Virus record (IMG/VR): IMGVR_UViG_3300033148_001810
Coordinates: 1-28,950 of that record
DNA from: a virus
DNA length: 28,950 bases
Direction: 5' to 3' (one strand)
Shown: piece after piece, positions 2,178 through 28,578 of the stretch
Position numbering within the stretch: position 1 is the first letter of the stretch
How the letters are laid out: the number at the start of each line of letters is the position of its first letter
Notes under the pieces: model-generated
Seen by the model: only the letters and a program-made list of their open reading frames with translations
Databases searched by the model: none
Told to the model about the DNA's origin: nothing
Made by a program: the position numbers and the translations under genes

Positions 2178-2429
2178 ATGGAAAACAAAACCGAATGCGG
2201 CAAATGTAAGAATTTCAGATTATATCTAGGAGCTAAATATGATGGGTTCTGCACAGCTAAAGCAGGTAGCGGGATACTCAGTTACTCGCTCATTAAGGGA
2301 TGCAAGAAGTCTAAAGCTATTACATCCACTGTGTATGCCGAACCATCACCTAGACGATGCAAAGAAATCCCTGCTCCTAAAGTACAACAACGGGGATTTA
2401 TTTACAGAATACGACATTTATTTGATTAA
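2178..2429 (+). CDS. Small Cys-rich, zinc-binding-like phage protein (83 aa)
   Basis: From the ATG at 2178 the protein reads MENKTECGKCKNFRLYLG and has four well-placed cysteines: C-x2-C near the N-terminus, GFCTAK, and LIKGCKK. This spacing matches small phage proteins thought to bind one zinc ion. An in-frame TTG at 2112 would add 22 residues. Neither start has a clear ribosome binding site, so the start is uncertain. The C-terminal 35 residues (SPRRCKEIPAPKVQQ...) overlap another same-strand frame (2335-2454), so one of the two tails may not be translated. Confidence 0.55.
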   Translation: MENKTECGKCKNFRLYLGAKYDGFCTAKAGSGILSYSLIKGCKKSKAITSTVYAEPSPRRCKEIPAPKVQQRGFIYRIRHLFD

Positions 2430-4357: not shown

Positions 4358-4365
4358 CCGAGGCG

Positions 4366-4381
4366 CTCCCCGAAAGGGGAG
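4366..4381 (+). promoter_or_regulatory. GNRA hairpin holding the ribosome binding site of the next gene
   Basis: CTCCCC-GAAA-GGGGAG forms a perfect 6-bp stem with a GNRA tetraloop, 8 bases after the stop of the NGO0469-like gene. The right arm GGGGAG is the only Shine-Dalgarno-like sequence before the ATG at 4391 (9 bases away), so the hairpin would hide it. This may tune translation of the Gp157-like gene or couple it to the gene upstream. Confidence 0.5.
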
Positions 4382-4390
4382 TGATTTACT

Positions 4391-4870
4391 ATGAAATTAT
4401 ACGAATTATCAGCCCAATATGATCAAGCTCTAGCTAATCTTTCGGATATGGACTTACCTGCTGAGGTTGTTGACGACACCTTAGAGGCTCTGTCAGGCGA
4501 GATCGAAGAAAAGGCTATCAACGTAGCGAAGTACTATGAAAACCTCTTAGCTGACGCTACAGCTATCAAGGAAGCTGAATCTAAGATGGCTGCAAGACGT
4601 AAAGTTATCGAGAAGCGGGCTGCAAGTCTTAAATCTTACCTGAAAGCCAATATGGAGAGGACAGGTATTACTGAAATTTCATGCCCATACTTCGTGGTCA
4701 AAGTTAAAAAGAATCCTCCAAAAGTGGTGGTCGATGATTTAGAGGCAATACCGCTTGAATTTAAGAAGGAGGTTCCTGCTGTCTGGAGGGCTGACTTACC
4801 AGCGATTAAGAAAGCGGGCGGCTGTACTGGAGCGAGAATCGAACAAGACACAAGGATAGATATCAAATGA
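4391..4870 (+). CDS. Gp157-like phage protein (159 aa)
   Basis: This matches the Sipho_Gp157 pattern: a helical N-terminus (KLYELSAQYDQALANL), a long charged helix to about residue 95 that includes EEKAINVAKYYENLLAD and the K/R-rich KMAARRKVIEKRA (65-77), then a compact C-terminal strand region with VKVKKNPPKVVV (103-114). The K-x-N-P-P-K/S-V box is the hallmark I rely on. Gp157 proteins have been linked to phage resistance in streptococci, and in many phages they lie beside single-strand DNA-binding or recombination genes, as here. The exact biochemical activity is unknown. Its likely ribosome binding site lies in the hairpin upstream. Confidence 0.75.
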   Translation: MKLYELSAQYDQALANLSDMDLPAEVVDDTLEALSGEIEEKAINVAKYYENLLADATAIKEAESKMAARRKVIEKRAASLKSYLKANMERTGITEISCPYFVVKVKKNPPKVVVDDLEAIPLEFKKEVPAVWRADLPAIKKAGGCTGARIEQDTRIDIK

Positions 4871-5034
4871 AAATGCTACGAAAGCTAATCAATTTCCTAC
4901 TCAGCACCCCCTCATGGGGGCCAGCAGAGATGATGTCAACAGAGTTAAAGCCTAACCGTGGGCCTATGTGCCGAAGGTATACGGGCGCTGAATTAGCCGA
5001 TTGGCGCAGGATGATGATTAAGAATTATGGATAG
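4867..5034 (+). CDS. Small basic hypothetical protein (55 aa)
   Basis: It starts with an ATGA overlap with the Gp157-like gene and reads MKMLRKLINFLLSTPSWGP, ending in IKNYG. The N-terminus is basic and hydrophobic, like a short signal or amphipathic helix, and the C-terminal part (CRRYTGAELADWRRMM) is basic. Its TAG lies inside the first codons of the next gene (8-base overlap). No family is recognised. Confidence 0.55.
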   Translation: MKMLRKLINFLLSTPSWGPAEMMSTELKPNRGPMCRRYTGAELADWRRMMIKNYG

Positions 5035-6010: not shown

Positions 6011-6217
6011 ATGATGAGCTTACCGCCAATTACTGAAGAAGATAAGCCCGCTATTGAGTCAATAATTAAAAGGCTGAAACGGTTAAGAAAGCGTGATGCC
6101 GAACATCAATCAAGAGCCAATAACGGTAGCTCATACGGAAATCCAAATCTTGATGATGCCATTAAAGGGCTTGTCGACTTTGGAGCTATGAAGGGTTGGT
6201 GGGGCTTTCAGGATTAA
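6011..6217 (+). CDS. Small basic hypothetical protein (68 aa)
   Basis: GGAGGAGAG precedes tandem ATGs at 6011 and 6014 (MMSLPPITEED). The middle is a very basic helix (IIKRLKRLRKRDAEHQSRAN) that could bind nucleic acid. The C-terminus (LDDAIKGLVDFGAMKGWWGF) is hydrophobic and tryptophan-rich. The combination could be a small DNA- or RNA-binding protein, but this is composition only. Its last bases overlap by 4 the antisense gene ending at 6214. Confidence 0.6.
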   Translation: MMSLPPITEEDKPAIESIIKRLKRLRKRDAEHQSRANNGSSYGNPNLDDAIKGLVDFGAMKGWWGFQD

Positions 6218-6513
6218 TTATGGCTATCTGCATGGCTATTAAACCTAATAATATGGGAGGCAAGTTCTTTTGAGCAATCTAGAGTTTGGATTATGGGTAT
6301 TTTTTGCGGTTCTGTATTCTGTGGTAATGGTTTGGCTGCTGATTGATATAGTGGCGAGCTTGGTGGTTCGTCGATTACGCGGTAAATGTCATACCCAGAC
6401 AGAGACAGAAACAGTCCCAAGAGAATCAGTACAGCCTTCTTGTTCTCCAGTAAAGGATGAACCCAGTTCTCAGAGAAGGTCTTGAACCAGTTAGAATTTG
6501 AAGGAGTAGCCAC
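6214..6513 (-). CDS. Small single-span membrane protein, last late gene (99 aa)
   Basis: It starts at GTG (6513), overlapping the YadA-anchor gene by 23 bases. It reads MATPSNSNWFKTF, with one membrane helix at about residues 27-45 (AVLILLGLFLSLSGYDIY) and a proline-rich outer segment (EPPSSPLYQSAAKPLPQ). A single N-terminal span with a proline-rich tail is compatible with a spanin-like or accessory lysis protein, and the position directly after the lysis genes fits, but no lipobox or coiled coil proves it. It converges with, and overlaps, the rightward operon's last gene. Confidence 0.55.
   Translation of the reverse strand: MATPSNSNWFKTFSENWVHPLLENKKAVLILLGLFLSLSGYDIYRVIDEPPSSPLYQSAAKPLPQNTEPQKIPIIQTLDCSKELASHIIRFNSHADSHN
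6270..6485 (+). CDS. Small membrane protein at the end of the rightward operon (71 aa)
   Basis: It starts at TTG (6270) with GGGAGG 9 bases upstream. The TTG overlaps the stop of a 17-codon frame (6220-6272, MAICMAIKPNNMG...) as TTGA, suggesting coupling. Residues 5-29 (EFGLWVFFAVLYSVVMVWLLIDIVA) form one long membrane span, followed by a basic stretch (RRLRGK) and a polar, Ser/Thr-rich tail. Almost its whole length lies antisense to the late minus-strand gene 6214-6513, which also encodes a membrane span. Composition and ribosome binding site support it, but the antisense partner could be the only real gene. Confidence 0.45.
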   Translation: MSNLEFGLWVFFAVLYSVVMVWLLIDIVASLVVRRLRGKCHTQTETETVPRESVQPSCSPVKDEPSSQRRS

Positions 6514-6847
6514 TACCTATCCCTATATTGCCATCCTCGTACCCCAGAGAGCCGCTAAGAAGCCCACTGTCCTTGTTGAACCGTTTACCAATGGCGAAGC
6601 TAATCGCGTTAGAGCCGTTCATAGAGCCCACAGCGATTGACCCTTGAAGTGGAATATACCTGGAATCAAGATGTAGGTTTGAGGTAGCCATCGCCATCGC
6701 AGATTTAATGTCTTTCTTGATCGTGGTTGTATTGTTCACCACGTATTCATGGTGGGAGCCAGAGGCGAATATATCCGATGGGCCTAAGACCATCAGCAGG
6801 ATAAATATCACAATTAGCACGATAGATTCAAGGTGTGGATATTTCAT
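6491..6847 (-). CDS. YadA-type trimeric outer-membrane anchor, phage-encoded (118 aa)
   Basis: Residues 1-29 look like a signal peptide or membrane helix (SIVLIVIFILLMVLG ... FASG). A short stalk (HHEYVVNNTTTIKKDI) leads into AMAMATSNLHLD, then four amphipathic strands: GSIAVGSMNGS, AISFAIGKRF, SGLLSGSLGYE, NIGIGSGYSFKF, ending in Phe. This is the layout of the YadA membrane-anchor domain, where three chains make one 12-stranded barrel, and the C-terminal Phe is the usual outer-membrane assembly signal. No passenger adhesin is present. Placed right after the holin gene (4-base overlap), it may permeabilise the outer membrane at lysis or modify the cell surface; both are inferences. Confidence 0.65.
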   Translation of the reverse strand: MKYPHLESIVLIVIFILLMVLGPSDIFASGSHHEYVVNNTTTIKKDIKSAMAMATSNLHLDSRYIPLQGSIAVGSMNGSNAISFAIGKRFNKDSGLLSGSLGYEDGNIGIGSGYSFKF

Positions 6848-7350
6848 TTTTGCCCCATTAATTCAGTTTTCTTCTTGCTGCCAGCACTTGAGCCAAAGTA
6901 ATAATTCCCCACCTGAGTAAGCATGGCTGTCAATGCGCCAAGTAAAATACTTACCGGCTGCATGGCTTTGTCTGGGATGTCGGCAAAAGCTATGGCGTAT
7001 AAGGTAGCAAAGAACCCAATAACGATTACAGTAGCGAGTATCTTAGGGGCATTATCTCCGGTCTTGATCTCACGCTCACGGGCGTTGGCCCGGTCATCAG
7101 AAGCAATGCGCTCCAGATCAACACCGGCCTTCTCCATGTCCGTTTTAAACTTAGCGTCAACCTCTTTGACTTTCAGCAGGTCGGCAGGAGAGGCGTTAGC
7201 CAGAGCTAACTCGACCTCATCCTTGCCCGCATCTTCATTGCCTAACAAGGCTCCACCAAGGGCTTTAACCGCCATGCCAGCGACAGGCCCACCAAGAGCC
7301 GTAGCAATAGTCGGCGCGATACTGCCTAGCAAACTTTTCCAATCATCCAT
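6844..7350 (-). CDS. Holin, 3TM superfamily (168 aa)
   Basis: The protein starts MDDWKSLLGSIAPTIATALG, an amphipathic N-terminal segment rich in Gly and Ala to about residue 37. A charged helical linker follows (GKDEVELALANASPADLLKVKEVDAKF), then two clear spans at 102-123 (PKILATVIVIGFFATLYAIAFA) and 130-152, and a basic tail (SKKKTELMGQK). This is the pattern of the holin of 3TMs family. The start at 7350 is chosen over the TTG at 7365 because GGAGGAAGTAGCA leads into this ATG. It would form the inner-membrane lesion that releases lysis enzymes. Confidence 0.8.
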   Translation of the reverse strand: MDDWKSLLGSIAPTIATALGGPVAGMAVKALGGALLGNEDAGKDEVELALANASPADLLKVKEVDAKFKTDMEKAGVDLERIASDDRANAREREIKTGDNAPKILATVIVIGFFATLYAIAFADIPDKAMQPVSILLGALTAMLTQVGNYYFGSSAGSKKKTELMGQK

Positions 7351-7352
7351 TG

Positions 7353-7646
7353 CTACTTCCTCCAATATACCCGCGCTTCTTTAGTTAATGTGGAAATACT
7401 TTCTTTATTCTCCTGACTGCGAGCATCAAGATTCTGCACGAAAGCAGCTGTAATTATACCCTGTTCTCGAATCTTCCTCACATCACTGACAATACTTGCC
7501 ATCCCATTGGTGACAGTATTGGAATTAGTTGTGTAGACATAAGTAATCAGACCCATGAATAACATAATAAGACTACCAGTGAGGCCAAAAAGCACCTTTA
7601 TCACTGTTACCCCGTCAGAGCTTCTATGTTTATGTTGCGGTTCCAT
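7353..7646 (-). CDS. Single-span membrane protein in the lysis cassette (97 aa)
   Basis: A polar N-terminus (MEPQHKHRSSDGV) is followed by one membrane helix at about 16-38 (IKVLFGLTGSLIMLFMGLITYVY). The rest is a polar, probably coiled helical segment (IVSDVRKIREQG ... LDARSQENKESISTLTKEA). The layout, N-terminal span plus periplasmic helix, resembles inner-membrane spanins or XhlA-type holin partners. It overlaps the DUF5675 gene by 17 bases and ends 2 bases before the holin start, so the three are one unit. No lipoprotein partner was seen, so the spanin label is not secure. Confidence 0.65.
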   Translation of the reverse strand: MEPQHKHRSSDGVTVIKVLFGLTGSLIMLFMGLITYVYTTNSNTVTNGMASIVSDVRKIREQGIITAAFVQNLDARSQENKESISTLTKEARVYWRK

Positions 7647-8055
7647 TCTGCCACCTTATTGTTAGTGTGTGTTCTGATTCTCTCGCAAGAATAGCTAAGA
7701 AATACTCCATAGCATGTCGTGAGCTAATAACATTCCAGCTATCCCCTATATTCCTGCCTAGCCCTATACAGCCTGCAAGCTCTGATTGTTTATTCGCTAC
7801 ATGGAAAAGTATTCCCCAGCGTTTATCGGGGGCTTCCCAATGAGTAACACCATCACCTTCCAGCGCCCATGTCTCACCATGTCTACGAGAATTATGAGGG
7901 ACTAATTTATAATCCCCATCAGGTATACAGGAGATATTCGACCTATTATCAAGCCATTCCCTCTCAACTGAATAAAGGGTCATACCTTCAATCTCTAGCT
8001 CCCCAAACGTACCTTTACCGGGGATAGAGCCGTATCTTGTAAGGGTTAGGTTCAT
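7630..8055 (-). CDS. DUF5675 family protein, possible lysis enzyme (141 aa)
   Basis: The family pattern is clear: LTRYGSIPGKGTFGELEIEG near the start, LYSVEREWLDNRSNISCIPDG (27-47, the W-L-D-N ... S-C-I-P-x-G box), YKLVPHNS, then WGILFHVANKQSELAGCIGLG (80-100) with the H and the GCIG cysteine conserved. DUF5675 proteins are common in phages beside lysis genes and are sometimes proposed as peptidoglycan hydrolases, but the activity is not established to my knowledge. It takes the place where an endolysin would be expected, before the membrane proteins of the cassette, and no other endolysin is visible in the window. Confidence 0.75.
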   Translation of the reverse strand: MNLTLTRYGSIPGKGTFGELEIEGMTLYSVEREWLDNRSNISCIPDGDYKLVPHNSRRHGETWALEGDGVTHWEAPDKRWGILFHVANKQSELAGCIGLGRNIGDSWNVISSRHAMEYFLAILARESEHTLTIRWQNGTAT

Positions 8056-9888
8056 TTAATTACCAACGTAAAATCTGATAGCGCCTAAATCTACCTCTGG
8101 CCCAGACCCAACATCTACAGTGACCGCGCCAGTGCTTGCAGTGATAAAAAGCCTTGCATGTGCGTTATTACCGCTAGTAGTAAAATAATGATTGAATCCT
8201 GGTCTTAGCTCTAATGGGAAAGTGAATATAGTCGACGAGCCAGAAGATACACTACCTCGGCAAGTAACTAACCCTTCTGCGTCTACTCGATAACCTGCCT
8301 GTGCAAAGGGAGTTCCAAATTCGTTAACCCAGCTATTTTCCAATGTAGGCGCAACCCACAAAGCATCTCGCCCCACACTCAAGATACCTCCCTCGACCTG
8401 ATCTCTGAATATGCCGCTATACGCATAAGGTAAGGATTCTGGTGGCTGGATGACAATATTTGGAGCAACTAAGGTTAAATTTGAGCTTTGCTTTATTGGG
8501 TAATGGCTATGCACTACACCCTCCGTTCCCTGCACAGTCTGGTTAACGGGTACAGAAAAAGTATCATCATTTATTCTCGTAATTACATGCTCACCATCTA
8601 TGTTCGGCGTTCCGTTTGTACCTGTAAATGTATGCGTGTCTTGATCGGTAAGACCATGTCCAACCACCGTAACAACAGCCGGATTAGCTACACTTATATC
8701 TGTAATGTCTTGATCTGCCAAAAGATCAAATCTCGTACCATTCACGTTAAATCCAACTAAGGATGCTGCGGCAGAAGCATCTAACCTAAATCCATAGACT
8801 GGATCACCTCCAGTAAGTTTTTCTCCGCTGCAACCTAAGAATGAAAACGGGCCTAATGGGTGAGAAGGAACAGCTCCAGTGAAGTTCATATGCACATAAG
8901 AGCCAGAAAAAGGAACCATATAAGTTCCGATGAATGACCAGCTGCCCATTGATTGAGTAACTTCCATATAAATACAAGCCGCAGCCGCATCGGTTGATGA
9001 GTTGATAAGGTATAAGTTGCCAGTTGCTACGCTAACTAGGTTAGTAGATGTAGTTAAGCTATCAACAGATAAATCATCTGCTGCACTTGTGTAAAAACAA
9101 TATTTCCCACCGCTGCCTAGATTATGTACGTACAAGTCACCCCATGTATTAACTTCAGAAGCGATAGAATAAATAGCGGCTACACTGAAAGTACCCTGTA
9201 TTCTTAGGAGGTCTATATTGTGGTGGCCCGCTGAATTAGCCGAATTCCTACCAAGTAATAACCCGGTTTTTGGATGATTTGCGGGATCAGTTTCAATCGC
9301 AAAATCTTTTAAAGTAACAAAAGATGCACCTTTCAAAGACAGGACAGAAGCCCCTGTATGCTGCCCATAAAAGGTTGTTGCCCCCAAATACCCGACAACC
9401 TCATCAAACTTTCCTCTACTGTCGCCGGTTAGTTTAAGACCCCAGAATAGCTGTAACTCACTGGTTAATAGGTATGACCCGGCAGGGGCATGTACATGCC
9501 CTCTCTTGGTCAGCTTTACAGAATCAATAGCATTCTGGATTGCTGTAGTATCATCCGTACCAGTATCGGCTACTCTGTCATAATCACCCTTCGCGCCATA
9601 TCTTCTTACGTCACCTACAGGATATTCGTAATCCGTTACACCTGTCTCCCCAGCTAGGATAGGATAGTAAATAAGATGATAGCCTTTAGTACCATCGTCT
9701 GTAACGATAGAAGCAAGGTCATCAAAAGCTGATTCAGTAGCGTCATTAATCGCAGTAGCAAAGACCTGATTAGGGTCGCTTAGCTTACCTTTAATGGTTG
9801 CCCATTTTACTTTGTTGTCTTCAGAGATAGACCCATCATCGTTAGGGGGTGATGTGTTATATCCGCTTTGACTAGGCTTCGAGTACAT
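8056..9888 (-). CDS. Tailspike with pectate-lyase-like beta-helix (610 aa)
   Basis: Residues 1-58 form a virion-attachment module (YNTSPPNDDGSISEDNKVKW) shared with the 334-aa fibre protein. Residues about 92-160 carry the pectate-lyase-3 start (DVRRYGAKGD...DTTAIQNAIDS, HAPAGSYLLTSEL), followed by repetitive short strands to about 390 as expected of a right-handed beta-helix. Residues 393-458 (VVTVVGHGLTDQDTHTF...DDTFSVPV) are an inserted FCCH-like domain. The C-terminal 100 residues (NEFGTPFAQAGYRVDAEGLVTCRG...) resemble a tip or trimerisation domain of receptor-binding proteins. Likely a trimeric spike that binds and perhaps cleaves surface polysaccharide. Catalytic residues cannot be named by eye. 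Confidence 0.8.
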   Translation of the reverse strand: MYSKPSQSGYNTSPPNDDGSISEDNKVKWATIKGKLSDPNQVFATAINDATESAFDDLASIVTDDGTKGYHLIYYPILAGETGVTDYEYPVGDVRRYGAKGDYDRVADTGTDDTTAIQNAIDSVKLTKRGHVHAPAGSYLLTSELQLFWGLKLTGDSRGKFDEVVGYLGATTFYGQHTGASVLSLKGASFVTLKDFAIETDPANHPKTGLLLGRNSANSAGHHNIDLLRIQGTFSVAAIYSIASEVNTWGDLYVHNLGSGGKYCFYTSAADDLSVDSLTTSTNLVSVATGNLYLINSSTDAAAACIYMEVTQSMGSWSFIGTYMVPFSGSYVHMNFTGAVPSHPLGPFSFLGCSGEKLTGGDPVYGFRLDASAAASLVGFNVNGTRFDLLADQDITDISVANPAVVTVVGHGLTDQDTHTFTGTNGTPNIDGEHVITRINDDTFSVPVNQTVQGTEGVVHSHYPIKQSSNLTLVAPNIVIQPPESLPYAYSGIFRDQVEGGILSVGRDALWVAPTLENSWVNEFGTPFAQAGYRVDAEGLVTCRGSVSSGSSTIFTFPLELRPGFNHYFTTSGNNAHARLFITASTGAVTVDVGSGPEVDLGAIRFYVGN

Positions 9889-9892
9889 TTTA

Positions 9893-10108
9893 CTATTTAA
9901 TCCTGTATTTTATATAAAAGATATTCTGGTCATCAGGTTTTCCTTTGAGGCCATCGTTTAATCTTGACGAGTGCCAAAACCCATAGCTACCATCCTTGCT
10001 TTCAATCTGAACAATGCCTTTAAAGTCCTTATCCTGATGGCTGAAATCGTCCTCCATATCATAACCAAGACCTATAGACAGGCTTAATGACAGAAGAAAA
10101 CTATTCAT
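9893..10108 (-). CDS. Small exported beta-strand protein between tail genes (71 aa)
   Basis: It overlaps the fibre gene as ATGA and ends 4 bases before the tailspike start. The first 12 residues (MNSFLLSLSLSI) are hydrophobic and could be a short signal peptide. The rest is strand-like and amphipathic: GLGYDMED, FKGIVQIES, YGFWHSSRLNDGL, NIFYIKYRIK. The final strand pair with WHSS...N...Y loosely recalls the end of small outer-membrane barrels such as PagL-type enzymes, but it is far too short for a full barrel. Function unknown; it may be a tail-assembly helper or an exported accessory protein. Confidence 0.5.
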   Translation of the reverse strand: MNSFLLSLSLSIGLGYDMEDDFSHQDKDFKGIVQIESKDGSYGFWHSSRLNDGLKGKPDDQNIFYIKYRIK

Positions 10109-11109
10109 ACCGAGTTATATCCGTAGCCAGTTAACCATACATAAATGTTGGTGGCTTCAGTGCTAGATACCCAATACAACTCAAATACACCTGAAGAGGA
10201 AAATGGTATTTTAGTCACGCTATAATCTAAGGCATGTCCATGCCCTGCCGCATTGGTGTAATACCCGGTGGTCAAAATACCAGTATCAATCCCATAAGCT
10301 TCAGAGCTACCATCGCCCCTAGCGGCAAGGGTGGCAGAACGTACTGTATTGGCTGCGGTAGCAGAATCAGTCGCACTTGCATATATTCTCAATTCCACCC
10401 AGTCAGCGCCTAGAGGCACACTATCCAAAACGGCCCAGATGTGATCTGCCCCACTACCTGTTGGGCCTATTGACTCCCATGTAACGGCTGATACTGTTGA
10501 TGTAATATTAAGTTGGGTATTTGAGATGTTGGCATTGCCGCTTGCATTGTTTACAAATAAACCCATCCTTCCCGCGAGAGTCTCTGGGGTTATGAAAACA
10601 TCTGATGCTGTCCCAGCATCCGCTTGTGCTTGCGTAGCAATTTTTACTTGAACCGTCTGAAATCCACTAGCAGCAGCATTCACTACGAAACGGATATAAT
10701 CTAAAGAGTTCATGGTTACATCGGCAGTCACCGTGTTAATAGTGTCTGTAGAGGTAGTACGGGCCATTGTAATAACATTAGAACCTGTGTTCTTTACATC
10801 ACAGAACCAACCCGCTGTCAGAGTAGCTGCGTCTCCAAGAGTCGGGGTAGAAGCTCCTGACATCTCGATAAACTGATTATTATGACTAGCTCCAAGGGTC
10901 ACAGCAGCACTAACTACTGAAATAGGGCCATAGTCTAAAGCTGTATTAATATCAGTGTTTATAGCTTCAGCTAAAGTCTTTGGGGGGTCGGTCAGTTTAT
11001 TCTTTATCGTTGACCACTTAACCTTATTAGCCTCACTCGTAGCCCCGTCATCACTGGGGGGCGTTGAGTTATAGCCTGATATTGAGTTTGAACTGTACTT
11101 TGCTCCCAT
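10105..11109 (-). CDS. Tail fibre-like protein (334 aa)
   Basis: Residues about 13-58 (YNSTPPSDDGATSEANKVKW ... AINTDINTALD) match the N-terminus of the 610-aa tailspike, so both probably dock on the same tail site. Residues 64-157 look like a small beta domain (SAAVTLGASHNNQFIEMSG, FCDVKNTGSNVITM) common in phage fibres. Residues 158-182 (ATQAQADAGTASDVFITPETLA) are the typical fibre box A-T-x-A-x-A-D-A-G-T. The C-terminal 150 residues are Ser/Thr/Ala-rich strands, probably the receptor-binding tip (TTGYYTNAAGHGHALDYSV). A virion adhesin role is well supported; the receptor is unknown. Confidence 0.75.
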   Translation of the reverse strand: MGAKYSSNSISGYNSTPPSDDGATSEANKVKWSTIKNKLTDPPKTLAEAINTDINTALDYGPISVVSAAVTLGASHNNQFIEMSGASTPTLGDAATLTAGWFCDVKNTGSNVITMARTTSTDTINTVTADVTMNSLDYIRFVVNAAASGFQTVQVKIATQAQADAGTASDVFITPETLAGRMGLFVNNASGNANISNTQLNITSTVSAVTWESIGPTGSGADHIWAVLDSVPLGADWVELRIYASATDSATAANTVRSATLAARGDGSSEAYGIDTGILTTGYYTNAAGHGHALDYSVTKIPFSSSGVFELYWVSSTEATNIYVWLTGYGYNSV

Positions 11110-21229: not shown

Positions 21230-22687
21230 CTACCAGTTCCCTAAGCCCTGTGGAGTATGTTGTTTAATCTGTCTCATCACTTTAACTTCAGCATGTCTTC
21301 GTGCCATTACCGCATATCGAATAGCAGACATCATATCATCATTAAACGGTACTATTTTCCCATCCTTACGGTGGTACATGCCCAATTCTTCCCAAAACAT
21401 CGTAACCGAGGAAAAGACCTTAAATCGGCCTGTTTCCATCATTTCCAGCATTTCCATAATGCCAGACTCAACAGACTGAGAACCTTTGCCTTCCTGCTCT
21501 CCAAGACCGGGGGGATTGGTAAAATAGGTATGATGCATCTTCACCCCCAATTCACGGTATCTGTCAGCTAAAGGTTTGCCTGAACCTTTCTCAGTCTGAA
21601 GACCATCTTTCGGCCAGCTTACTGGAATCCAGTCACCCTTTCTTTTAATCGCCTCCGCGTGCATCGGGGGTAGAGTACGTTGTTCTTTGTACCCATCATA
21701 GATCACAACTGAGTCTGCTTCCCTGTCCCATGCAATAAAAGCACAGGCAAAGGGATGATCCCAGCCGAAGTCTATACCGTTTATTCTAGGCCAATGTGCA
21801 GGAATTTCAAATGGTTCAACTTCAATTGTTTCACGTGGAACAGAAAAGACTAATCCAGACCCCATTAAAGGTTCGCCTTTCGCTCTCATAGCCCTCTCAT
21901 GTTTAGGAACTCCAGCGAGTTTCTGCTCTCTTAATTCTGGGGTCATATGGGGCGCATCATCCCACGTAGCCCTGATTAATGCCTGTCCGGGCTTTAAGTC
22001 CTGAAGGAAGTTTCGCACAACCTCTGTAATCCCTTCTTCTGGGGTAAATGTTATGTATTCAATCCCATTAGTAGAAAACTGAGATCGAGCTATTTGCGAC
22101 TGTACGTCTGGTGGAGGCTCTTCATCAGGCCAAGCAACATCATACCTATGTCCCATGAACTTTTTCGGCCCTTGCTCATAGGCTCTAAAGTAGACCTCAG
22201 AATTTGAACCCGATATGTGACTAACAAGAACAGAGTCGAAGGCATTATTGACTCCTGGCTTTCTATTAGTTTTAACGATGCATCTCTTTGGGACTGACCC
22301 AGCGCCGAGCATTTTCTCATCAGATGGGTCTCCAAACATCTCCCGTTGGCATATATCCCTAGCGGTTTCGTTGGTATTAGACCCCACAAGGACTTTAACT
22401 GATTTATCAAACCTATGACCTTTCCACCAATCGGGGTAAAGACCTGTAAGGTGCATGGCCGTTTCCATTGCGCCAGAATATGTCTTTCCTATTTGATTGG
22501 CGCACATCAAAGCCCTTTGAATGGACAGATGGGCCTCATTCTTATCTGAAGGAATACAAACAAAGTCACCAAACCCTTTAGCGTGGTGAAATCTTATCTG
22601 GTAATCATAGGGAGCGTAAAATTCTAGCTTATTATACTTCCTGTACTCCTGTAGCTCCTCTACAGCCTCAAGAATGGAGTTATCCAC
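21230..22687 (-). CDS. terL: Terminase large subunit (485 aa)
   Basis: ATPase half: a Walker A-like CANQIGKTYSG at 62-72 (deviant G-K-T loop) and Walker B YDVAWPDEE at 182-190 with the catalytic glutamate. A coupling segment YITFTPEEG follows at 211-219. Nuclease half: GIDFGWDHP at 304-312 provides the first catalytic aspartate, and further acidic residues lie towards the C-terminus. Length is normal. It drives DNA into the procapsid and cuts it. It overlaps the preceding glycosyltransferase gene by 8 bases, so the inserted glycan cassette is transcribed into it. In most phages the small subunit is adjacent; here it lies about 6 kb upstream. Confidence 0.9.
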   Translation of the reverse strand: MDNSILEAVEELQEYRKYNKLEFYAPYDYQIRFHHAKGFGDFVCIPSDKNEAHLSIQRALMCANQIGKTYSGAMETAMHLTGLYPDWWKGHRFDKSVKVLVGSNTNETARDICQREMFGDPSDEKMLGAGSVPKRCIVKTNRKPGVNNAFDSVLVSHISGSNSEVYFRAYEQGPKKFMGHRYDVAWPDEEPPPDVQSQIARSQFSTNGIEYITFTPEEGITEVVRNFLQDLKPGQALIRATWDDAPHMTPELREQKLAGVPKHERAMRAKGEPLMGSGLVFSVPRETIEVEPFEIPAHWPRINGIDFGWDHPFACAFIAWDREADSVVIYDGYKEQRTLPPMHAEAIKRKGDWIPVSWPKDGLQTEKGSGKPLADRYRELGVKMHHTYFTNPPGLGEQEGKGSQSVESGIMEMLEMMETGRFKVFSSVTMFWEELGMYHRKDGKIVPFNDDMMSAIRYAVMARRHAEVKVMRQIKQHTPQGLGNW

Positions 22688-23366
22688 GTTGGTTACAGTT
22701 CTGCATTAGTTTTCGCTCTATAAACCATTCTTCGGAATATTCACATCCCTCATATTCGTGGAAATAGGGGCCGCCAACGGTGAAATGAACTAACTTGGCA
22801 TCAGGGTTAGGATCAAGCTCAGAAACTAGATGGTTCCAGTCTTTCGGAAGCTCGCCAATTGAATCAGTCCAGTTAAACCTGTGAAGGTCAAGCCCAGAAG
22901 CAGTATCGACGTAATCAGGAGTAAGTCGCTTACAATGATGGTGAGAGCAGTTAAAAAGAATAACGCTTGACCAATTCTTTCGAGGATAAGCATACTGCTT
23001 TGTCCCAAGGTACTTAGTTTCATCCTTTGGTGTGTAGTCATGTTTAACGACCTGAACCGCTCTGGTGAAATCCTTTAAGTCCCATAATTTCTTAATATCA
23101 TCTAAAACCATCATGTCAGCATCAATAAAGATTGCATACCCCTTATAACCGTTTAAATAAGGGACAAGAAATCGCGTAAACGCGAACTCATTTGATTGTT
23201 TTGGGTCAATCGACCTATTGTGTACCGATTTGAGCAAAGACCTTTTTATAGGTATAAAACTCACCGGCACGGTAGCTCTGGAGAGAATCGAATGTGTTAG
23301 CGTATGCCATGCGACAGATTCAGCTTGGTCGAATCCGATATATATCGGTATTGCTTCTTGGCTCAT
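22680..23366 (-). CDS. Glycosyltransferase, GT8-like (228 aa)
   Basis: The order GFDQAESVAWHTLTHSIL (11-28), FAFTRFLVPYLNGYKGYAIFIDADMMVL (61-88, containing the D-A-D metal-binding triad), RKNWSSVILFNC, and HFTVGGPYF near the end is that of a GT-A fold enzyme of the GT8/glycogenin-like type common in marine and freshwater phage contigs. It should transfer a sugar from a nucleotide-sugar using Mn2+ held by the D-x-D. Acceptor and sugar are unknown. It is the last gene of the glycan cassette and is coupled to the large terminase gene by an 8-base overlap. Confidence 0.75.
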   Translation of the reverse strand: MSQEAIPIYIGFDQAESVAWHTLTHSILSRATVPVSFIPIKRSLLKSVHNRSIDPKQSNEFAFTRFLVPYLNGYKGYAIFIDADMMVLDDIKKLWDLKDFTRAVQVVKHDYTPKDETKYLGTKQYAYPRKNWSSVILFNCSHHHCKRLTPDYVDTASGLDLHRFNWTDSIGELPKDWNHLVSELDPNPDAKLVHFTVGGPYFHEYEGCEYSEEWFIERKLMQNCNQRG

Positions 23367-23393
23367 TTTCTTCTCCCTTTACCATTATCACTA

Positions 23394-24041
23394 TTAAAGT
23401 CTCTCTATGTCATCTTCACCAAAATAAGTTCCCGTTTGAACCTCAACAACTACCATCGGTTCCTTATTGTCATTTATTAGCTGATGAATCTCTTGTTTTT
23501 TAATAAACTTATATGAATTGTCTTCAGTAAAAATCCAATGTTCGTTTCTGAACTTATGCCTTTGCAGACTTATAGCCCTTCCCGGCAAAACAGTGAGAAT
23601 TTTTACCTTAAAATCTTCATCATACAATGTTCTATAAAACCCCCAGTCTCTCTGGACTATCTCAGAACTAGACGAGGTTTTCCCTCCGCCAATATTGAAT
23701 AGCAGGGAAACGCCAGTATCATTACATAAATTAATCTCAGGAGTATTCTCTTCGTGCCTATCTCCGCCGTTAGCAAAGAAATCTGGCCTCAAAGACCTAA
23801 TTGCTTCCGATACAGTATTGTCAGCATCATCCACAGGATAGACATAACTTACCCCCTTCATAGAAAGAAGAATCTCTTTCCTATGGTCAAACGGCATATA
23901 GTAGAATCCCTTTTTCCTCTTTAGCCAGCTATCTGAGTTCAAAGCAACAACAACAGAACCGTGTTTAGCCGACTCGTTTATATACCTGATATGCCCCGGA
24001 TGGATTGGATCAAAACCACCAGAAACAAGAACCGTCTTCAT
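23394..24041 (-). CDS. Nucleotidyltransferase fused to a phosphomannose-isomerase-type cupin (215 aa)
   Basis: Residues 1-130 are a cytidylyltransferase-fold domain like RfaE2/HldE: GGFDPIHPGH at 8-17 (H-x-G-H nucleotide site), VVVALNSDSWLKRKKG (30-45), FFANGGDR (88-95), and a Ser-rich SSSSEIV (123-129). Residues 131-215 match the end of type II phosphomannose isomerase: WGFYRTL, VLPGRAISLQRHKFRNEHW (151-169, with cupin ligands H162, E167, H168), EIHQLIN (H186), EVQTGTYFGEDDIERL (200-215). The cupin seems to lack about 15-20 residues between W169 and the following strand, keeping the metal ligands. Likely activates a sugar phosphate (mannose or heptose type) for the cassette. Confidence 0.75.
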   Translation of the reverse strand: MKTVLVSGGFDPIHPGHIRYINESAKHGSVVVALNSDSWLKRKKGFYYMPFDHRKEILLSMKGVSYVYPVDDADNTVSEAIRSLRPDFFANGGDRHEENTPEINLCNDTGVSLLFNIGGGKTSSSSEIVQRDWGFYRTLYDEDFKVKILTVLPGRAISLQRHKFRNEHWIFTEDNSYKFIKKQEIHQLINDNKEPMVVVEVQTGTYFGEDDIERL

Positions 24042-24559
24042 TAGAGTGCCTTAATCATCATCACCAGAGAAACCCCGTTATCGGAGACAGGTAGCACAAG
24101 ATGAGTCATGCCATCAATGACCCGGTTACAGCCAAATCCCGGTCTTTCAGGTGTGTAGTAGTCGTCGAAGACTAAAACACCGCCCGGATTTAAAAGATGG
24201 GCTACAAAGTTAAAATCAGACTGTATGGTTTCAATTGAATGCCCTCCATCAATAAAGGCAAAATCCACCTTCTTGTCAAAGGTCATCAATGTGTCAGAAG
24301 TCAACCCTTTGTACAGAGTGTGAGGAATGTCCTTCAAGACCTTATGAGCGTTCTCTTCGGTACACCGGCCTTTGCCATTCATCTCTTTCTCATCAAGATT
24401 AAGATCACCTCCTTCAAATACATCGAAGCCGTAATAGTGGTCGAACTTGAACGCTTTGTACCATTCAACCGGCCTTACCGCTTTGTGAGTTCCGATCTCT
24501 AAAACCGTTTTAGGTTTCTGCTCTTGAATAATATCAATTATCTGATTGTAGCGCAGCAT
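24041..24559 (-). CDS. SAM-dependent methyltransferase, class I (172 aa)
   Basis: Motif I is TVLEIGTHKA (18-27), with the acidic residue of the next strand at YGFDVFEGGD. DFAFIDGGHSIETIQSDF (99-116) and LLNPGGVLVFDDYY (122-135) are the typical post-I and motif IV regions of the Methyltransf_24 group, which often methylates sugars or small glycans. It overlaps the Gmd gene by 26 bases and shares its last base with the start of the fusion gene. In this context, O-methylation of the cassette's sugar is the simplest reading; host or phage nucleic acid as substrate is less likely, since no target-recognition domain is present. Confidence 0.75.
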   Translation of the reverse strand: MLRYNQIIDIIQEQKPKTVLEIGTHKAVRPVEWYKAFKFDHYYGFDVFEGGDLNLDEKEMNGKGRCTEENAHKVLKDIPHTLYKGLTSDTLMTFDKKVDFAFIDGGHSIETIQSDFNFVAHLLNPGGVLVFDDYYTPERPGFGCNRVIDGMTHLVLPVSDNGVSLVMMIKAL

Positions 24560-25457
24560 CTAGCATTTCCTCTATTAACATCTCAAATGTATATTCTCGC
24601 TCCCATCCTATCCCTTCAGCTCTTGACGGGTCTCCGATTAAAGCATTCACTTCGGTAGGTCGGTAGAATTTAGGGTCAACGTCAACAAAGTGCGTGTACT
24701 CAAGATCAACGTAAGAAAAAGCAATATCAAGCAAGTCTCGTATTGATCTTCCTTCTCCGGTAGCAAGAACGTAATCACCCGGCTCTGGCTGCTGCAACAT
24801 TAACCACATGCCCTTAACATAATCTTTTGCATGTCCCCAATCTCTTATAGCCTCAAGGTTCCCTAAAGCAAGCCTTTCCTGCTTTCCTTTAACGATGTTT
24901 GCTACACCTTGGACGATCTTTTGTGTAACAAATTCAGCTCCGCGTCGAGGAGATTCATGGTTAAACAAAATCCCCGTGCTCGCGTGTAAGTTATAAGCCT
25001 CACGGTAGTTTATCGTTGACCAGTGAGCTGCTAACTTCGCTATTCCATAAGGACTACGAGGATGAAAGTAAGTCCTTTCATGCTGAGGTGGCGGGGACGA
25101 GCCAAATAACTCAGAAGTTGATGCTTGATAGAACTTACAGTTTAAATACCTCGTAGCCTCTAACATATTTAAAGCGCCGCCAGCGTTTATATCGAATGTC
25201 GCTTTAGGTGAGTTAAAAGATTCATGGACAAAACTCATTGCGGCCAGATTGTAAATTTCGTCAGGCGCAACATCTAAAACTAATCGAATTGTATTGGGGT
25301 CTGTAATATCTCCAGAAACTACTTTTACACCCTCTGGAAGCTCTTTAGGGGCCACAGTCCTTCTTACTAATCCATAGACATCGTAACCCTTATCTAAAAG
25401 CAGTTCACTTAAATAGAAAGAGTCCTGACCGCCAAGGCCGGTTATAAATGCTTTCAC
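24534..25457 (-). CDS. gmd: GDP-mannose 4,6-dehydratase-like (307 aa)
   Basis: An extended short-chain dehydrogenase. The NAD(P) loop is TGLGGQDSFYLSELLL (6-21), a Gmd-type G-x-x-G-Q-D-x-x-Y-L. STSELFG lies at 113-119 (Gmd signature S-T-S-E), the catalytic Y137-x3-K141 is in SPYGIAK, and FNHESPRRG is at 165-173, which is characteristic of Gmd rather than RmlB. It converts GDP-mannose to GDP-4-keto-6-deoxymannose, the precursor of fucose, rhamnose and perosamine. At 307 residues it is shorter than usual (about 340-370). The start is GTG, overlapping the stop of the 56-aa gene (GTGA). A GDP-heptose dehydratase role is an alternative given the HldE-like neighbour. Confidence 0.85.
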   Translation of the reverse strand: MKAFITGLGGQDSFYLSELLLDKGYDVYGLVRRTVAPKELPEGVKVVSGDITDPNTIRLVLDVAPDEIYNLAAMSFVHESFNSPKATFDINAGGALNMLEATRYLNCKFYQASTSELFGSSPPPQHERTYFHPRSPYGIAKLAAHWSTINYREAYNLHASTGILFNHESPRRGAEFVTQKIVQGVANIVKGKQERLALGNLEAIRDWGHAKDYVKGMWLMLQQPEPGDYVLATGEGRSIRDLLDIAFSYVDLEYTHFVDVDPKFYRPTEVNALIGDPSRAEGIGWEREYTFEMLIEEMLDAALQSDN

Positions 25458-25624
25458 TTAAGAAGTTCCGATACATCTACATTTCCATTCCATCTTTTTA
25501 CAACCCATCGGCCATTCTCTACTCTAATGTCACTAACACACTTTGAATAGTAGCCAAGATTGCGCCTCAACTGACGGTATATCGCCTCACCAACATTCCT
25601 TGCTTTTATTGTATCTAATGACAT
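25454..25624 (-). CDS. Small hypothetical protein in the glycan cassette (56 aa)
   Basis: A 56-residue frame starting MSLDTIKARNVGEAIYRQL and ending NVDVSELLK. It overlaps the end of the preceding glycosyltransferase gene by 10 bases, and its own TGA overlaps the GTG of gmd, so it fills the only gap in the cassette exactly. It is basic (YRQLRRNLGYYSKC), with a WVVKRWNG strand pair. No family is recognised. The fit to both neighbours is the main argument that it is real. Confidence 0.6.
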   Translation of the reverse strand: MSLDTIKARNVGEAIYRQLRRNLGYYSKCVSDIRVENGRWVVKRWNGNVDVSELLK

Positions 25625-26304
25625 AGTTTATTCTTCCTGTTTCCTTTATGGTGAACCATATATTTACCGAGTTTCGTTTTACTCAAAACATCAAGGGATT
25701 CGCCTTTCTTCCAGTTTGGAGTTAAGTTATTGCCCATTCTCCCCTTAGCCCAGTCGAAACAATAACAATCATGCCATCCCTTCTTTAAACCGAAAACAAG
25801 CCCTTTCTGTAAAGTTGCCTTATACCTTTTCTCGAAGATTTCAAACTCTTCATGTTCTGTATCAAAGCCAACAACCCCGCATTCAGTATAAAGCCCCTCT
25901 CTGCCCATAAAGACTAAAGACCTGTCCTTAAACAAATTAATTAAAAGGTCTTCAGGAATTTGTTTTTTAAACTCCAAATCAGCATCTAGCCAGTAAATCT
26001 TCCCGCCTTCCTTGAAAGCATCGAACTGACAGAACATCTTTCTACAAAACTTATTTAGGTCGAAATTATAATTGTAAAATGGCCCACCCATACCGTGAGC
26101 CTTTGGAATGTCTTTAATGTTTTCTAGGAATGAATTAACCCCCACTATCCCAAAGAAATCTCTTTTCTCCAGTTTTTCATGCTCAAAGTCTATCGGTTCT
26201 TCCAAGTAAAGAATGATTTTACCCGGCCAGTTGTCGATAAACTTTAAAAAGTGATGACCGTACTTCTTGTATCCTTCAGCAGAGAAAGAGGTCACTCCAA
26301 TCAT
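25615..26304 (-). CDS. Putative glycosyltransferase, GT-A like (229 aa)
   Basis: The N-terminus MIGVTSFSAEGYKKYGHHFL reads like an enzyme that senses a donor. GKIILYLEEP forms the second strand, and GKIYWLDADLEF (101-112) carries the D-A-D metal motif at the end of a strand, preceded by the helix KFCRKMFCQFDAFKEG. YTECGVVGFDTEHEEF and HDCYCFDWAK follow, in the place where acceptor-site residues usually lie. This arrangement fits a small GT-A glycosyltransferase of uncertain family. It is coupled to the 60-aa gene by ATGA. Confidence 0.65.
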   Translation of the reverse strand: MIGVTSFSAEGYKKYGHHFLKFIDNWPGKIILYLEEPIDFEHEKLEKRDFFGIVGVNSFLENIKDIPKAHGMGGPFYNYNFDLNKFCRKMFCQFDAFKEGGKIYWLDADLEFKKQIPEDLLINLFKDRSLVFMGREGLYTECGVVGFDTEHEEFEIFEKRYKATLQKGLVFGLKKGWHDCYCFDWAKGRMGNNLTPNWKKGESLDVLSKTKLGKYMVHHKGNRKNKLCH

Positions 26305-26483
26305 TTTAAATGACCGTTCATCAGATTTCTGGTTGTTATTTTGGTAGGGTTTAGTCTGTTCTTATCACAGTACCTTTCGAGTATCTGTATCTCTTCTGCA
26401 ACCTGCTTTAAAGCTTTAGAGACAGCCATTTTATTTTCAATCAGTTCGGCAAGTCTTTCCAGAATAACACTAAGGTCTTTCAT
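26301..26483 (-). CDS. Small coiled-coil-like protein (60 aa)
   Basis: A 60-residue frame starting MKDLSVILERLAELIENKMA, with heptad-like spacing of hydrophobic residues through about residue 35 (VSKALKQVAEEIQILERY), then a basic end (KNRLNPTKITTRNLMNGHLK). It overlaps both neighbours by 4 bases (ATGA). It is probably a small helical oligomer. Its link to the glycan enzymes is positional only. Confidence 0.6.
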   Translation of the reverse strand: MKDLSVILERLAELIENKMAVSKALKQVAEEIQILERYCDKNRLNPTKITTRNLMNGHLK

Positions 26484-26674
26484 GTAAAATCCTCCATAGA
26501 GACAGGGCGATCAATTGTAGATACAAGTGTCGCTACATCTATAATCCTTGTATGTTTAATGGTGGCTACTTTAGCTTTTGGCTCATAGCCTCCTTTAAGG
26601 CTTGCTATTGCTGGCGCAGCGGCCACAAGACCAAAGCTAAGGCCCGCCTTTTTAAGAAAGTCTCTTCTTTTCAT
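26480..26674 (-). CDS. Small protein with a twin-arginine (Tat) signal peptide (64 aa)
   Basis: From the ATG at 26674 (GGAGATTAC before it, ATGA overlap with the previous stop), the protein begins MKRRDFLKKAGLSFGLV. R-R-D-F-L-K-K matches the Tat consensus (S/T-R-R-x-F-L-K), the h-region AGLSFGLVAAAPAIA is moderately hydrophobic, and A-I-A|S is a good signal-peptidase site at about residue 24. The mature part would be only about 40 residues (KGGYEPKAKVATIKHTRIID ... SMEDFT), with no cofactor motif. A longer frame to 26734 was rejected because it has no supporting site. Tat export of so short a phage protein is unusual; function unknown. Confidence 0.7.
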   Translation of the reverse strand: MKRRDFLKKAGLSFGLVAAAPAIASLKGGYEPKAKVATIKHTRIIDVATLVSTIDRPVSMEDFT

Positions 26675-27234
26675 GTAATCTCCATTTTGTAAGTCTCTCT
26701 CAGAATAGAGAGTAATTCGTTTTCTTTTACCCAATCGTGCTTTGGTAAATCGCCCTTCCCACTACGTTTAATGCCATTATTTCTTGTAAATTCGATGGAG
26801 GGGTCTAAGAGAGTATCGAAGCCGAATAGCTTTATCTTTTCAGGCTTCCATCTATGGATAGATATTAAGATAGCCGCCATTCCCGTTGAAACGCAGGGAT
26901 GAGAGGCTGTTTGTCTAAAGCGGGCATTCCACGTATTTATAAATCCGAGAGGGATCATTAATGGCTTTTGTAGCTTAACCATCACTTGAGCAGAAGTACG
27001 AATATCAAAAGCACCGTTTTTAGGATAACCCCAGTATTCAGGGGCATCCATTTTATAGAACGTGCCCATAATTTCAGTTGTAGCACAAAGAGCGTCCACT
27101 TTAGAACCGTAGTCGTTTGTCCACATCACAGTATGAGAGCCTTTTAATCGAACAACTTTATCGAAAGAGTCTATCTGTTTTCCTCTCTCTGCACCCTTCA
27201 AAGACGGGCCGTGTCCGACTATAGCTACGTTCAT
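26671..27234 (-). CDS. GT29-like sialyltransferase-type protein (187 aa)
   Basis: The opening MNVAIVGHGPSLKGAERGKQ followed by IDSFDKVVRLKG (residues 1-32) parallels sialylmotif L (V-x-G-N-x-x-x-L-x-G ... G-x-x-I-D-x-x-D-x-V-x-R). HPCVSTGMAAILISIHRW with KIKLFGFD (112-140) parallels sialylmotif S (P-S-T-G ... Y-G-F). KHDWVKENELL (165-175) provides the H-x4-E of motif VS, with H166 and E171. Such short GT29-like proteins are found in bacteria and phages, where the donor is often unverified. It is therefore a probable glycosyltransferase; use of CMP-sialic acid is not proven, and no sialic acid synthesis gene is in the window. Confidence 0.65.
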   Translation of the reverse strand: MNVAIVGHGPSLKGAERGKQIDSFDKVVRLKGSHTVMWTNDYGSKVDALCATTEIMGTFYKMDAPEYWGYPKNGAFDIRTSAQVMVKLQKPLMIPLGFINTWNARFRQTASHPCVSTGMAAILISIHRWKPEKIKLFGFDTLLDPSIEFTRNNGIKRSGKGDLPKHDWVKENELLSILRETYKMEIT

Positions 27235-27524
27235 AGCTTCATTTGAAACATCTTACGAAGGTCGTCAATTACCTTTATACAAGGCAGGACTTCACTTTCG
27301 GTCTCCGGGTATCCGGTTACGAGAACGCCAAGGACTGAATGTAGCTCGGTGAGCATATCGTAGTAATCAACAGGGTCTACGTCCTGTTTGCCTATTCGAC
27401 CCATAAACTCGATGAAGGGGTCGAACTTTTCTTCAAGTCCATTAAAGTTGATTGTCAGGGCTGAAAGGTAGCCTTGAATGTCTTTGGTATGATCAAGAAA
27501 GTTGTTCAGGTCTTCGGGCATCAT
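27231..27524 (-). CDS. Hypothetical acidic helical protein in the glycan cassette (97 aa)
   Basis: A 97-residue frame starting MMPEDLNNFLDHTKDIQGYL and ending DDLRKMFQMKL. It is mostly helical and acidic, with LTELHSVLGVLVTGYPETES in the middle. There is one cysteine (EVLPCIKVIDD) and no membrane segment or catalytic motif. It overlaps the upstream gene by 32 bases and the downstream one by 4. A structural or partner role for the neighbouring transferases is possible but unsupported. Confidence 0.6.
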   Translation of the reverse strand: MMPEDLNNFLDHTKDIQGYLSALTINFNGLEEKFDPFIEFMGRIGKQDVDPVDYYDMLTELHSVLGVLVTGYPETESEVLPCIKVIDDLRKMFQMKL

Positions 27525-28578
27525 GGCTTATCGCTCTCTGATAGTCTTTAGGGGTGTTGTAAATACGGACTGAATTATAGACGGGTGACTGAAGATTGCC
27601 AAGAAAATAATACCATAAAGAGTTGTGGACTTCCCCAGTACCCCTCTTAGGTCTTATTGCGTGACATTCCTTACCTAGCCCTCCGGCTTCGTGAACGGTG
27701 GTCTGAGTGACTGTGACGACCTTATCCAAGCAGGAAATAAGGGCAAGATGGTTCTCCATATCCCCTAAGGGGTCAATTCCGAGGTCAACGATACCTTCGG
27801 GGAGGTCTTCGATCCATTCTCCTTTGGGGTGGGAAAGATACTGGAGATTGATATAAGTCGCGTCTTCGCACATAAGGTCTGCTGGAGATAGGTCTCCATG
27901 ACGGGCTTTCCATCCGATGCCAATCTTTCTATTAGGTATTCCATCTAGCACCACCTTCCACTTATTGACTAAAGAGGGGTCGGGTTTTAAATAAGGTTTA
28001 CCGGGGAAATGTTTTTTATCCCTACGGTAGAACATAAAGAGGTCTGCAAGAGCTACAACGTAAGTCCCTTCCTCATATTCTAGTTCGCCTAATCTTTGTC
28101 TTGGGGTGCATTTTATTCTAAAAGAGCGCTCAAACATAGGGATTAGCTTGGGATAGGTCTGAAATTCAAGCTTTTCATGCCCTAGACGGACAATTAACTC
28201 AGGAATGGCAGAAGCAAACAAGAGCTCATCACCAACACCTTGTTCACCAAGAATAACAAGCTTTTCACAGTCTTGACCATCCCAGCGAGGGAGATCAAAG
28301 GTATATCCATTAAAACTACGATAAGTCATGGCCCAGTCTGAGCGGTATTCCCACCCATCCCAGTTATCAAACCTTCCTAATCTTAAGCGGGCAGCACAGA
28401 GATTCCATCTGAAATCTGGAGGGTAGAGATTATAATCTATCTCCTTAGCATTCTTAATGACAGACTTAAGGTCTTTCTTCAGTCTGGAACGCTTTAACTG
28501 AGAAATATCCGTTTGATTGATTACTTCACATACTTCCGCATATTCTTGCTGCCAAGTCATAATTGCCTCGTCGGTCAA
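27493..28578 (-). CDS. GT9 / heptosyltransferase-like protein with helical N-terminus (361 aa)
   Basis: The N-terminal ~100 residues are helical and TPR-like (FRWNLCAARLRLGRFDNWDGWEYR is the repeat-type segment). The GT-B part begins LVILGEQGVGDELLFASAIPEL (107-128), the glycine-rich first loop of GT9 enzymes. KIGIGWKARHGD (218-229) lies in the donor-domain position, and VVTVTQTTVHEAGGLGK (287-303) matches the C-terminal T-x-x-x-H-x-A-G-x-L-G box. Proteins of this TPR plus GT9 type are common in phages and in bacteria that glycosylate surface structures. A heptose-type donor would suit the HldE-like domain nearby. It starts 1 base after the small terminase ends. Confidence 0.7.
   Translation of the reverse strand: MTDEAIMTWQQEYAEVCEVINQTDISQLKRSRLKKDLKSVIKNAKEIDYNLYPPDFRWNLCAARLRLGRFDNWDGWEYRSDWAMTYRSFNGYTFDLPRWDGQDCEKLVILGEQGVGDELLFASAIPELIVRLGHEKLEFQTYPKLIPMFERSFRIKCTPRQRLGELEYEEGTYVVALADLFMFYRRDKKHFPGKPYLKPDPSLVNKWKVVLDGIPNRKIGIGWKARHGDLSPADLMCEDATYINLQYLSHPKGEWIEDLPEGIVDLGIDPLGDMENHLALISCLDKVVTVTQTTVHEAGGLGKECHAIRPKRGTGEVHNSLWYYFLGNLQSPVYNSVRIYNTPKDYQRAISHDARRPEQLS

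Follow-up and report, generated by a model that had tools for sequence, protein, structure and literature searches.

In a published survey, 91 of 677 phages, approximately 13 % of the surveyed phages of Gram-negative hosts, were without a recognisable spanin, and an OMP is suggested as a possible o-spanin in a passage that gives no example (PMC6139136). This leaves to be explained how such spanin-less phages breach the outer membrane. We analysed a 28,950-nucleotide stretch of viral DNA (the window; positions 1 to 28,950 of IMG/VR record IMGVR_UViG_3300033148_001810) in which a gene for a probable YadA-type anchor lies within a lysis operon, providing a concrete candidate for such a role together with a candidate partner gene. 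The value of the locus lies in permitting a direct test of the question and not in a proven mechanism, and it points to a wide, little-studied set of YadA anchors encoded by phages.

The anchor gene and its protein

The gene (6491-6847, minus strand) encodes 118 amino acids and, on the evidence of the ORF list, Pfam, a homologue and fold matches, its product is very probably a minimal YadA-type outer membrane anchor without a passenger domain. The ATG start has GGGG ahead of it, and the ATGA at 6844-6847 is common to the holin gene. Residues 1-28 (6764-6847, minus strand) have the features of a Sec-type signal peptide, recognised from the sequence with no predictor and coinciding with a predicted AlphaFold2 helix at residues 4-21. 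Cleavage is expected after IFA; the signal-peptidase-like site falls between IFA and SG in the window protein and between VFA and SG in a relative from a second phage contig, L002 (IMGVR_UViG_3300033143_000660). The mature N-terminus is a 13-residue tip, SGSHHEYVVNNTT (6725-6763, minus strand), whose residues are the same in both proteins on sequence comparison. It carries VVNNTTT, an N@d-type VxxNTxx heptad of the kind that marks trimeric coiled coils, and VVNNTT(T/K) is kept in both proteins. Residues 53-118 (6494-6691, minus strand) constitute the beta-strand anchor by Pfam, AlphaFold2 and Foldseek, ending in GYSFKF and thus in a terminal Phe. A passenger (head and stalk) domain is absent, only the approximately 13 residues and a short segment lying between signal and anchor. 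An earlier note on this DNA had described, giving no strand, a 118-residue ORF with an N-terminal hydrophobic segment, a terminal Phe, no passenger domain and a four-base overlap with the holin gene, and each of these features was borne out, the first by the ORF list, sequence and AlphaFold2 model together.

The L002 relative shares 62 % identity with the window protein over the best segment and 54 % over the whole length. A search of named phages with the window protein and a search of genome contigs gave no match, and a second viral scan using the two-sequence alignment as query returned L002 again and nothing else. Over residues 70-118 the window protein matched the Pfam YadA_anchor profile (PF03895) at 18.6 bits (E 0.0021), short of the 22.7 bits set as gathering cut-off, while the L002 relative scored exactly at that cut-off (22.7 bits, E 1e-4). 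A profile built from the two proteins placed YadA (2lme) first among PDB matches, weakly (E 0.053), and an NCBIfam search gave no match. AlphaFold2, run on the window protein as a monomer with the two-sequence alignment (pLDDT 64), predicted the signal helix followed by five strands (53-61, 66-76, 79-91, 95-104 and 107-115). Against 350,542 PDB chains, Foldseek gave this model ranks 1-4 to AtaA (transmembrane domain, with TpgA-N) and to three Hia anchors (best E 7.5e-3), and in a viral library the first four ranks were phage YadA-anchor proteins headed by the anchor-only g139 of phiR1-RT. In the model of the L002 relative the elements follow one another as in the window protein; Foldseek with that model did not retrieve autotransporter anchors. 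The assignment as a YadA-type anchor made in the earlier note was upheld by the homologue at the Pfam cut-off and by the top Foldseek matches of the window model, and the protein would presumably trimerise into a 12-strand barrel.

The lysis cassette and the search for a spanin

The locus comprises five closely packed minus-strand genes, of which the anchor gene is the fourth. At the head of the cassette is a DUF5675 protein (7630-8055; PF18925, E 5.9e-20; phrog_1501), a probable endolysin by position, followed by a 97-amino acid protein (7353-7646) that by ORF list and hydropathy has an N-terminal TM segment and a helical-looking tail of approximately 63 residues. The latter has no family match and is a candidate i-spanin-like or accessory protein by its layout. 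The third gene (6844-7365, with a likely ATG start at 7350 and GGAGG ahead) encodes a holin-type membrane protein of phrog_1544 (E 3.6e-25) whose relatives lie beside endolysin genes. Although PHROGs lists phrog_1544 as being of unknown function, 66 of the 79 IMG/VR loci carrying relatives of this protein have a same-strand endolysin motif, and the reading of the neighbour as a holin-type lysis gene, and hence of the locus as a lysis cassette, is sound. The placement of the anchor in a lysis cassette, as originally proposed, thus holds by the ATGA overlap as well as by these loci.

The fifth gene (6214-6513) starts within the end of the anchor gene, overlapping it by 23 bases, and encodes a 99-amino acid protein with one N-terminal TM segment, a Pro-rich tail of approximately 52 residues and a single cysteine (Cys 80), as judged by ORF list and hydropathy. 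From this layout it is a candidate inner membrane partner of the anchor. Since the start of each later gene lies within the end of the preceding one, the holin, anchor and 99-amino acid genes are probably translationally coupled, and the anchor protein would be made late, from the lysis operon.

None of the 79 loci around relatives of the window holin had the anchor gene; with the 19 loci around relatives of the L002 holin included, only L002 did. In L002 the pair of anchor and one-TM protein recurs, but the holin ahead of it (phrog_31219) is not homologous and the endolysin (phrog_894) is a different one; neither resembles its counterpart in the window (phrog_1544 and DUF5675). The L002 gene after the anchor encodes a short one-TM protein of 81 amino acids with a periplasmic tail and cysteines at positions 67, 69 and 71. 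Its similarity to the 99-amino acid window protein is confined to the surroundings of the TM segment (score 39, reached by 6 of 2000 shuffles) and is, on this alignment, weak but probably real. A different outer membrane-type protein can also hold the slot behind the holin: in L041, a phage with an L002-type holin, the gene straight after the holin (4365-4874) has a C-terminal PagL match of 20.5 bits (E 5.5e-4), below the cut-off of 23. This PagL-like protein, a lipid A deacylase candidate, ends in Phe and had no relative in named phages.

The two anchor genes differ sharply in conservation along their length. Codons 1-41, covering signal peptide and tip, are near-identical: 11 codons differ synonymously and 4 non-synonymously, and the DNA of codons 31-40 is the same, whereas beyond codon 41 the DNA identity falls to about half. 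Judging from this pattern the anchor genes are mosaic, the exchange of signal and tip being more recent than that of the barrel. The most conserved part of both lysis-cassette copies is the exported tip and not the barrel, and recent recombination would account for part of that conservation.

Scans for strict, relaxed and AWAC-type lipoboxes in all frames identified no o- or u-spanin ORF in the window or L002 cassette, and a signal peptidase II lipobox is absent from the anchor protein itself. The Rz i-spanin profile PF03245 had no match in the L002 record or in G000, the linear record of 40.8 kb that contains the window and may be a fragment. The earlier observation that no convincing o-spanin is present was confirmed for the cassette by the lipobox scans and PF03245. 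A weak phrog_456 match at window 2271-2387 (11.6 bits) was rejected as a spanin, being outside the cassette and produced by a model that also fires in 13 of 14 control genomes. Only one small ORF with a clear lipobox turned up in the G000 record; it encodes a 130-amino acid lipoprotein on the minus strand (L012 7239-7631, corresponding to G000 about 36138-36530), approximately 30 kb from the lysis genes and with no family match; this distant lipoprotein may itself act as an o-spanin.

YadA anchors in other phages and in known systems

Using the YadA anchor from gp201 of Salmonella phage SKML-39 as query, we obtained 107 named phage records with YadA anchors. The majority of the inspected records (phiEco32, FSL SP-076, SKML-39, RF1, MED16, AAM22 and others) encode adhesin-like proteins whose passengers are coiled-coil or collagen-like, and many such proteins are annotated as tail protein or adhesin. 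Some are anchor-only forms of 122-146 amino acids: phiR1-RT g139 (122), CGG4-1 gp256 (140), SdyM_006_117 (130), KLB31 MVRL156 (138) and Vibrio XC31 QAX96202 (146), all well above the Pfam cut-off. The anchor-only genes of T4-like phages lie near tRNA, 57A- and 57B-type genes, and anchor genes of other phages are found among dUTPase, RNA polymerase or tRNA genes, for example; in phiR1-RT the lysozyme is 8 kb from g139. None of 17 regions inspected had a YadA-anchor gene beside an annotated holin, many genes in these regions being unnamed such that a holin could be unannotated. With approximately 107 phage records, the inspected ones not beside an annotated holin, an automatic tie between YadA anchors and lysis is weakened, and for the wider phage family we favour the idea, also raised in the earlier note, that the anchor affects receptor access. 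The anchor-only proteins point to a function within the infected cell. A survey of N4-like phages reported the YadA domain in 19 genomes, speculated on pathogenicity and filed the genes as possible virulence genes (PMC10654107).

The window protein shares with YadA, Hia and AtaA (PF03895) a signal peptide, a coiled-coil motif, a C-terminal strand anchor with an aromatic end and the fold matches, but differs in its lack of a passenger, its score below the Pfam cut-off and its location in a phage lysis operon. It has the N-terminal signal, short stretch and YadA anchor without a large passenger that are seen in g139, gp256, SdyM_006_117, MVRL156 and QAX96202, although the genes of those proteins do not lie in a recognised lysis cassette and several of them share an AGIAGVAAMxNIP-type stalk that is absent here. 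A phage-encoded YadA anchor is likewise found in phiEco32 gp119, FSL SP-076 and SKML-39 gp201, where it carries collagen-like or coiled-coil passengers and is often called a tail protein or adhesin. Rz/Rz1 offers the parallel of an overlapping pair of membrane genes in a lysis cassette, with one product for each membrane (predicted here from sequence), but the putative outer membrane component of the window is a barrel-type anchor and not a lipoprotein, the gene order is reversed and there is no sequence match. In the AtaA-TpgA and SadA-SadB systems, too, an autotransporter is accompanied by the gene of a partner that faces the periplasm; their partners, however, support or help to assemble adhesins and are not lysis proteins. 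The protein type is thus already known in phages and its place in a lysis operon is what is new. To our knowledge an anchor in a lysis operon with an overlapping inner membrane partner, in two phages with unrelated lysis genes, has not been described, and literature searches that paired YadA with either spanin or holin turned up nothing relevant among the papers listed.

Possible roles of the anchor

We infer, with a probability of about 0.4, that the anchor acts as the outer membrane disruption component of lysis, substituting for an o-spanin and contacting the 99-amino acid protein as its inner membrane partner. The anchor would be exported by Sec and then inserted by BAM, forming a trimeric barrel of 12 strands, with the short coiled coil and 13-residue tip outside the cell and the barrel serving as a foothold in the outer membrane. 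The 99-amino acid protein would bind the periplasmic side of the barrel with its Pro-rich tail, which if extended would be long enough to span to the outer membrane, and once the wall had been removed by the endolysin the pair would pull both membranes together. This spanin-like role is supported by the fold and family matches, by the overlaps with the holin gene (ATGA) and the 99-amino acid gene (23 bases), by the reappearance of both genes after an unrelated holin, by the missing lipobox ORF in either cassette and PF03245 match, and by the PagL-like protein in the same slot of L041. It also agrees with the knowledge that an autotransporter anchor can bind a partner in the periplasm (PMC13082670) and with the suggestion of an OMP as o-spanin in the spanin survey (PMC6139136). 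It is weakened by the restriction of the arrangement to two contigs, by the location of inspected phage anchors, including anchor-only T4-like forms, away from annotated holins, by the better conservation of the tip than of the barrel and by the weak likeness of the partner proteins. The score of the window protein under the Pfam cut-off and the failure of the L002 model to match autotransporter anchors count against it too, as do the possibly fragmentary state of G000 and its lipoprotein gene at about 36.1-36.5 kb. Whether these genes represent a new spanin class in some phages without lipoprotein spanins, with a trimeric beta-barrel anchor as outer membrane subunit and an overlapping one-TM protein as inner membrane subunit, is more doubtful, and we consider it somewhat unlikely.

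A tentative alternative, almost as likely as the o-spanin-like role, is a surface shield: a trimer made late in infection would expose its tip on the cell surface and block or mask the receptor used by the phage, sparing progeny from loss on already infected cells or debris, in the manner of the superinfection exclusion or progeny protection described for the lipoprotein Llp of phage T5. The identity of the tip in two phages although their barrels differ is consistent with such a shield. In other phages the genes for anchors, anchor-only forms included, sit away from lysis cassettes, which fits as well, and the surface-sugar cluster of the phage makes an investment in the cell surface possible. 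The tight overlap with the holin gene within a lysis operon argues against it, and the tip is the same at the DNA level too, which points in part to recent exchange. The truncated product of an adhesin or aggregation factor gene, acquired beside the lysis genes and with no lysis role, is conceivable given the full-length autotransporter-like proteins in many phages and the accessory genes, such as SadB and TpgA, with which bacterial autotransporters travel; the presence of both genes at this position in two phages whose holins are unrelated, and the excess of synonymous over non-synonymous changes in the first 41 codons (11 versus 4), make this improbable.

An overproduced small barrel could also load BAM late in infection and weaken the outer membrane without any partner. 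A short barrel-type protein dependent on export and the BAM route, encoded in a lysis operon, would suit this mechanism, but the conserved tip and the recurring downstream TM protein are left unexplained and we give it little credence. We rejected as main idea the open barrel perforating the outer membrane, an earlier proposal to which a barrel-type anchor without a passenger lends itself. The pore-filling helical segment of YadA and Hia is apparently kept (KKDIKSAMAMATSNL, aligned with YadA; unresolved in the AlphaFold2 monomer), which together with conservation of the exported tip makes an open pore very unlikely. The overlapping downstream gene for an inner membrane protein with a periplasmic tail renders the bridging of the two membranes more plausible than a pore. 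The anchor may instead be a virion protein, one phage record terming its YadA protein particle-associated, but the presence of a signal peptide speaks against this. Finally, an uncleaved signal anchor may allow a single protein to touch both membranes, although the I/V-F-A site suits cleavage by signal peptidase I and a linker of only approximately 30 residues precedes the first strand.

Other features of the window were recorded alongside the lysis locus. The surface-sugar gene cluster (22680-28578, minus strand) encodes a family 8 glycosyltransferase, a cytidylyltransferase fused to a mannose-6-phosphate isomerase C-terminal domain, a methyltransferase, a GDP-mannose 4,6-dehydratase and a family 29 glycosyltransferase. 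An 84-amino acid protein at 26480-26734 (minus strand) consists of a Tat-type signal, RRDFLKK, and little else, with a weak Pfam Tat-signal match below cut-off. An N-terminus of the type MG(A/S/T)KY...SGYN.TPP.DDG, found at 10105-11109 in the window, recurs in related phages (L018, L019, L021 and L023), and the tail spike at 8056-9888 opens with a similar start, SGYNTSPPNDDGSISEDNKVKW; by its sequence this recurring N-terminus resembles an exchangeable tail-spike adaptor.
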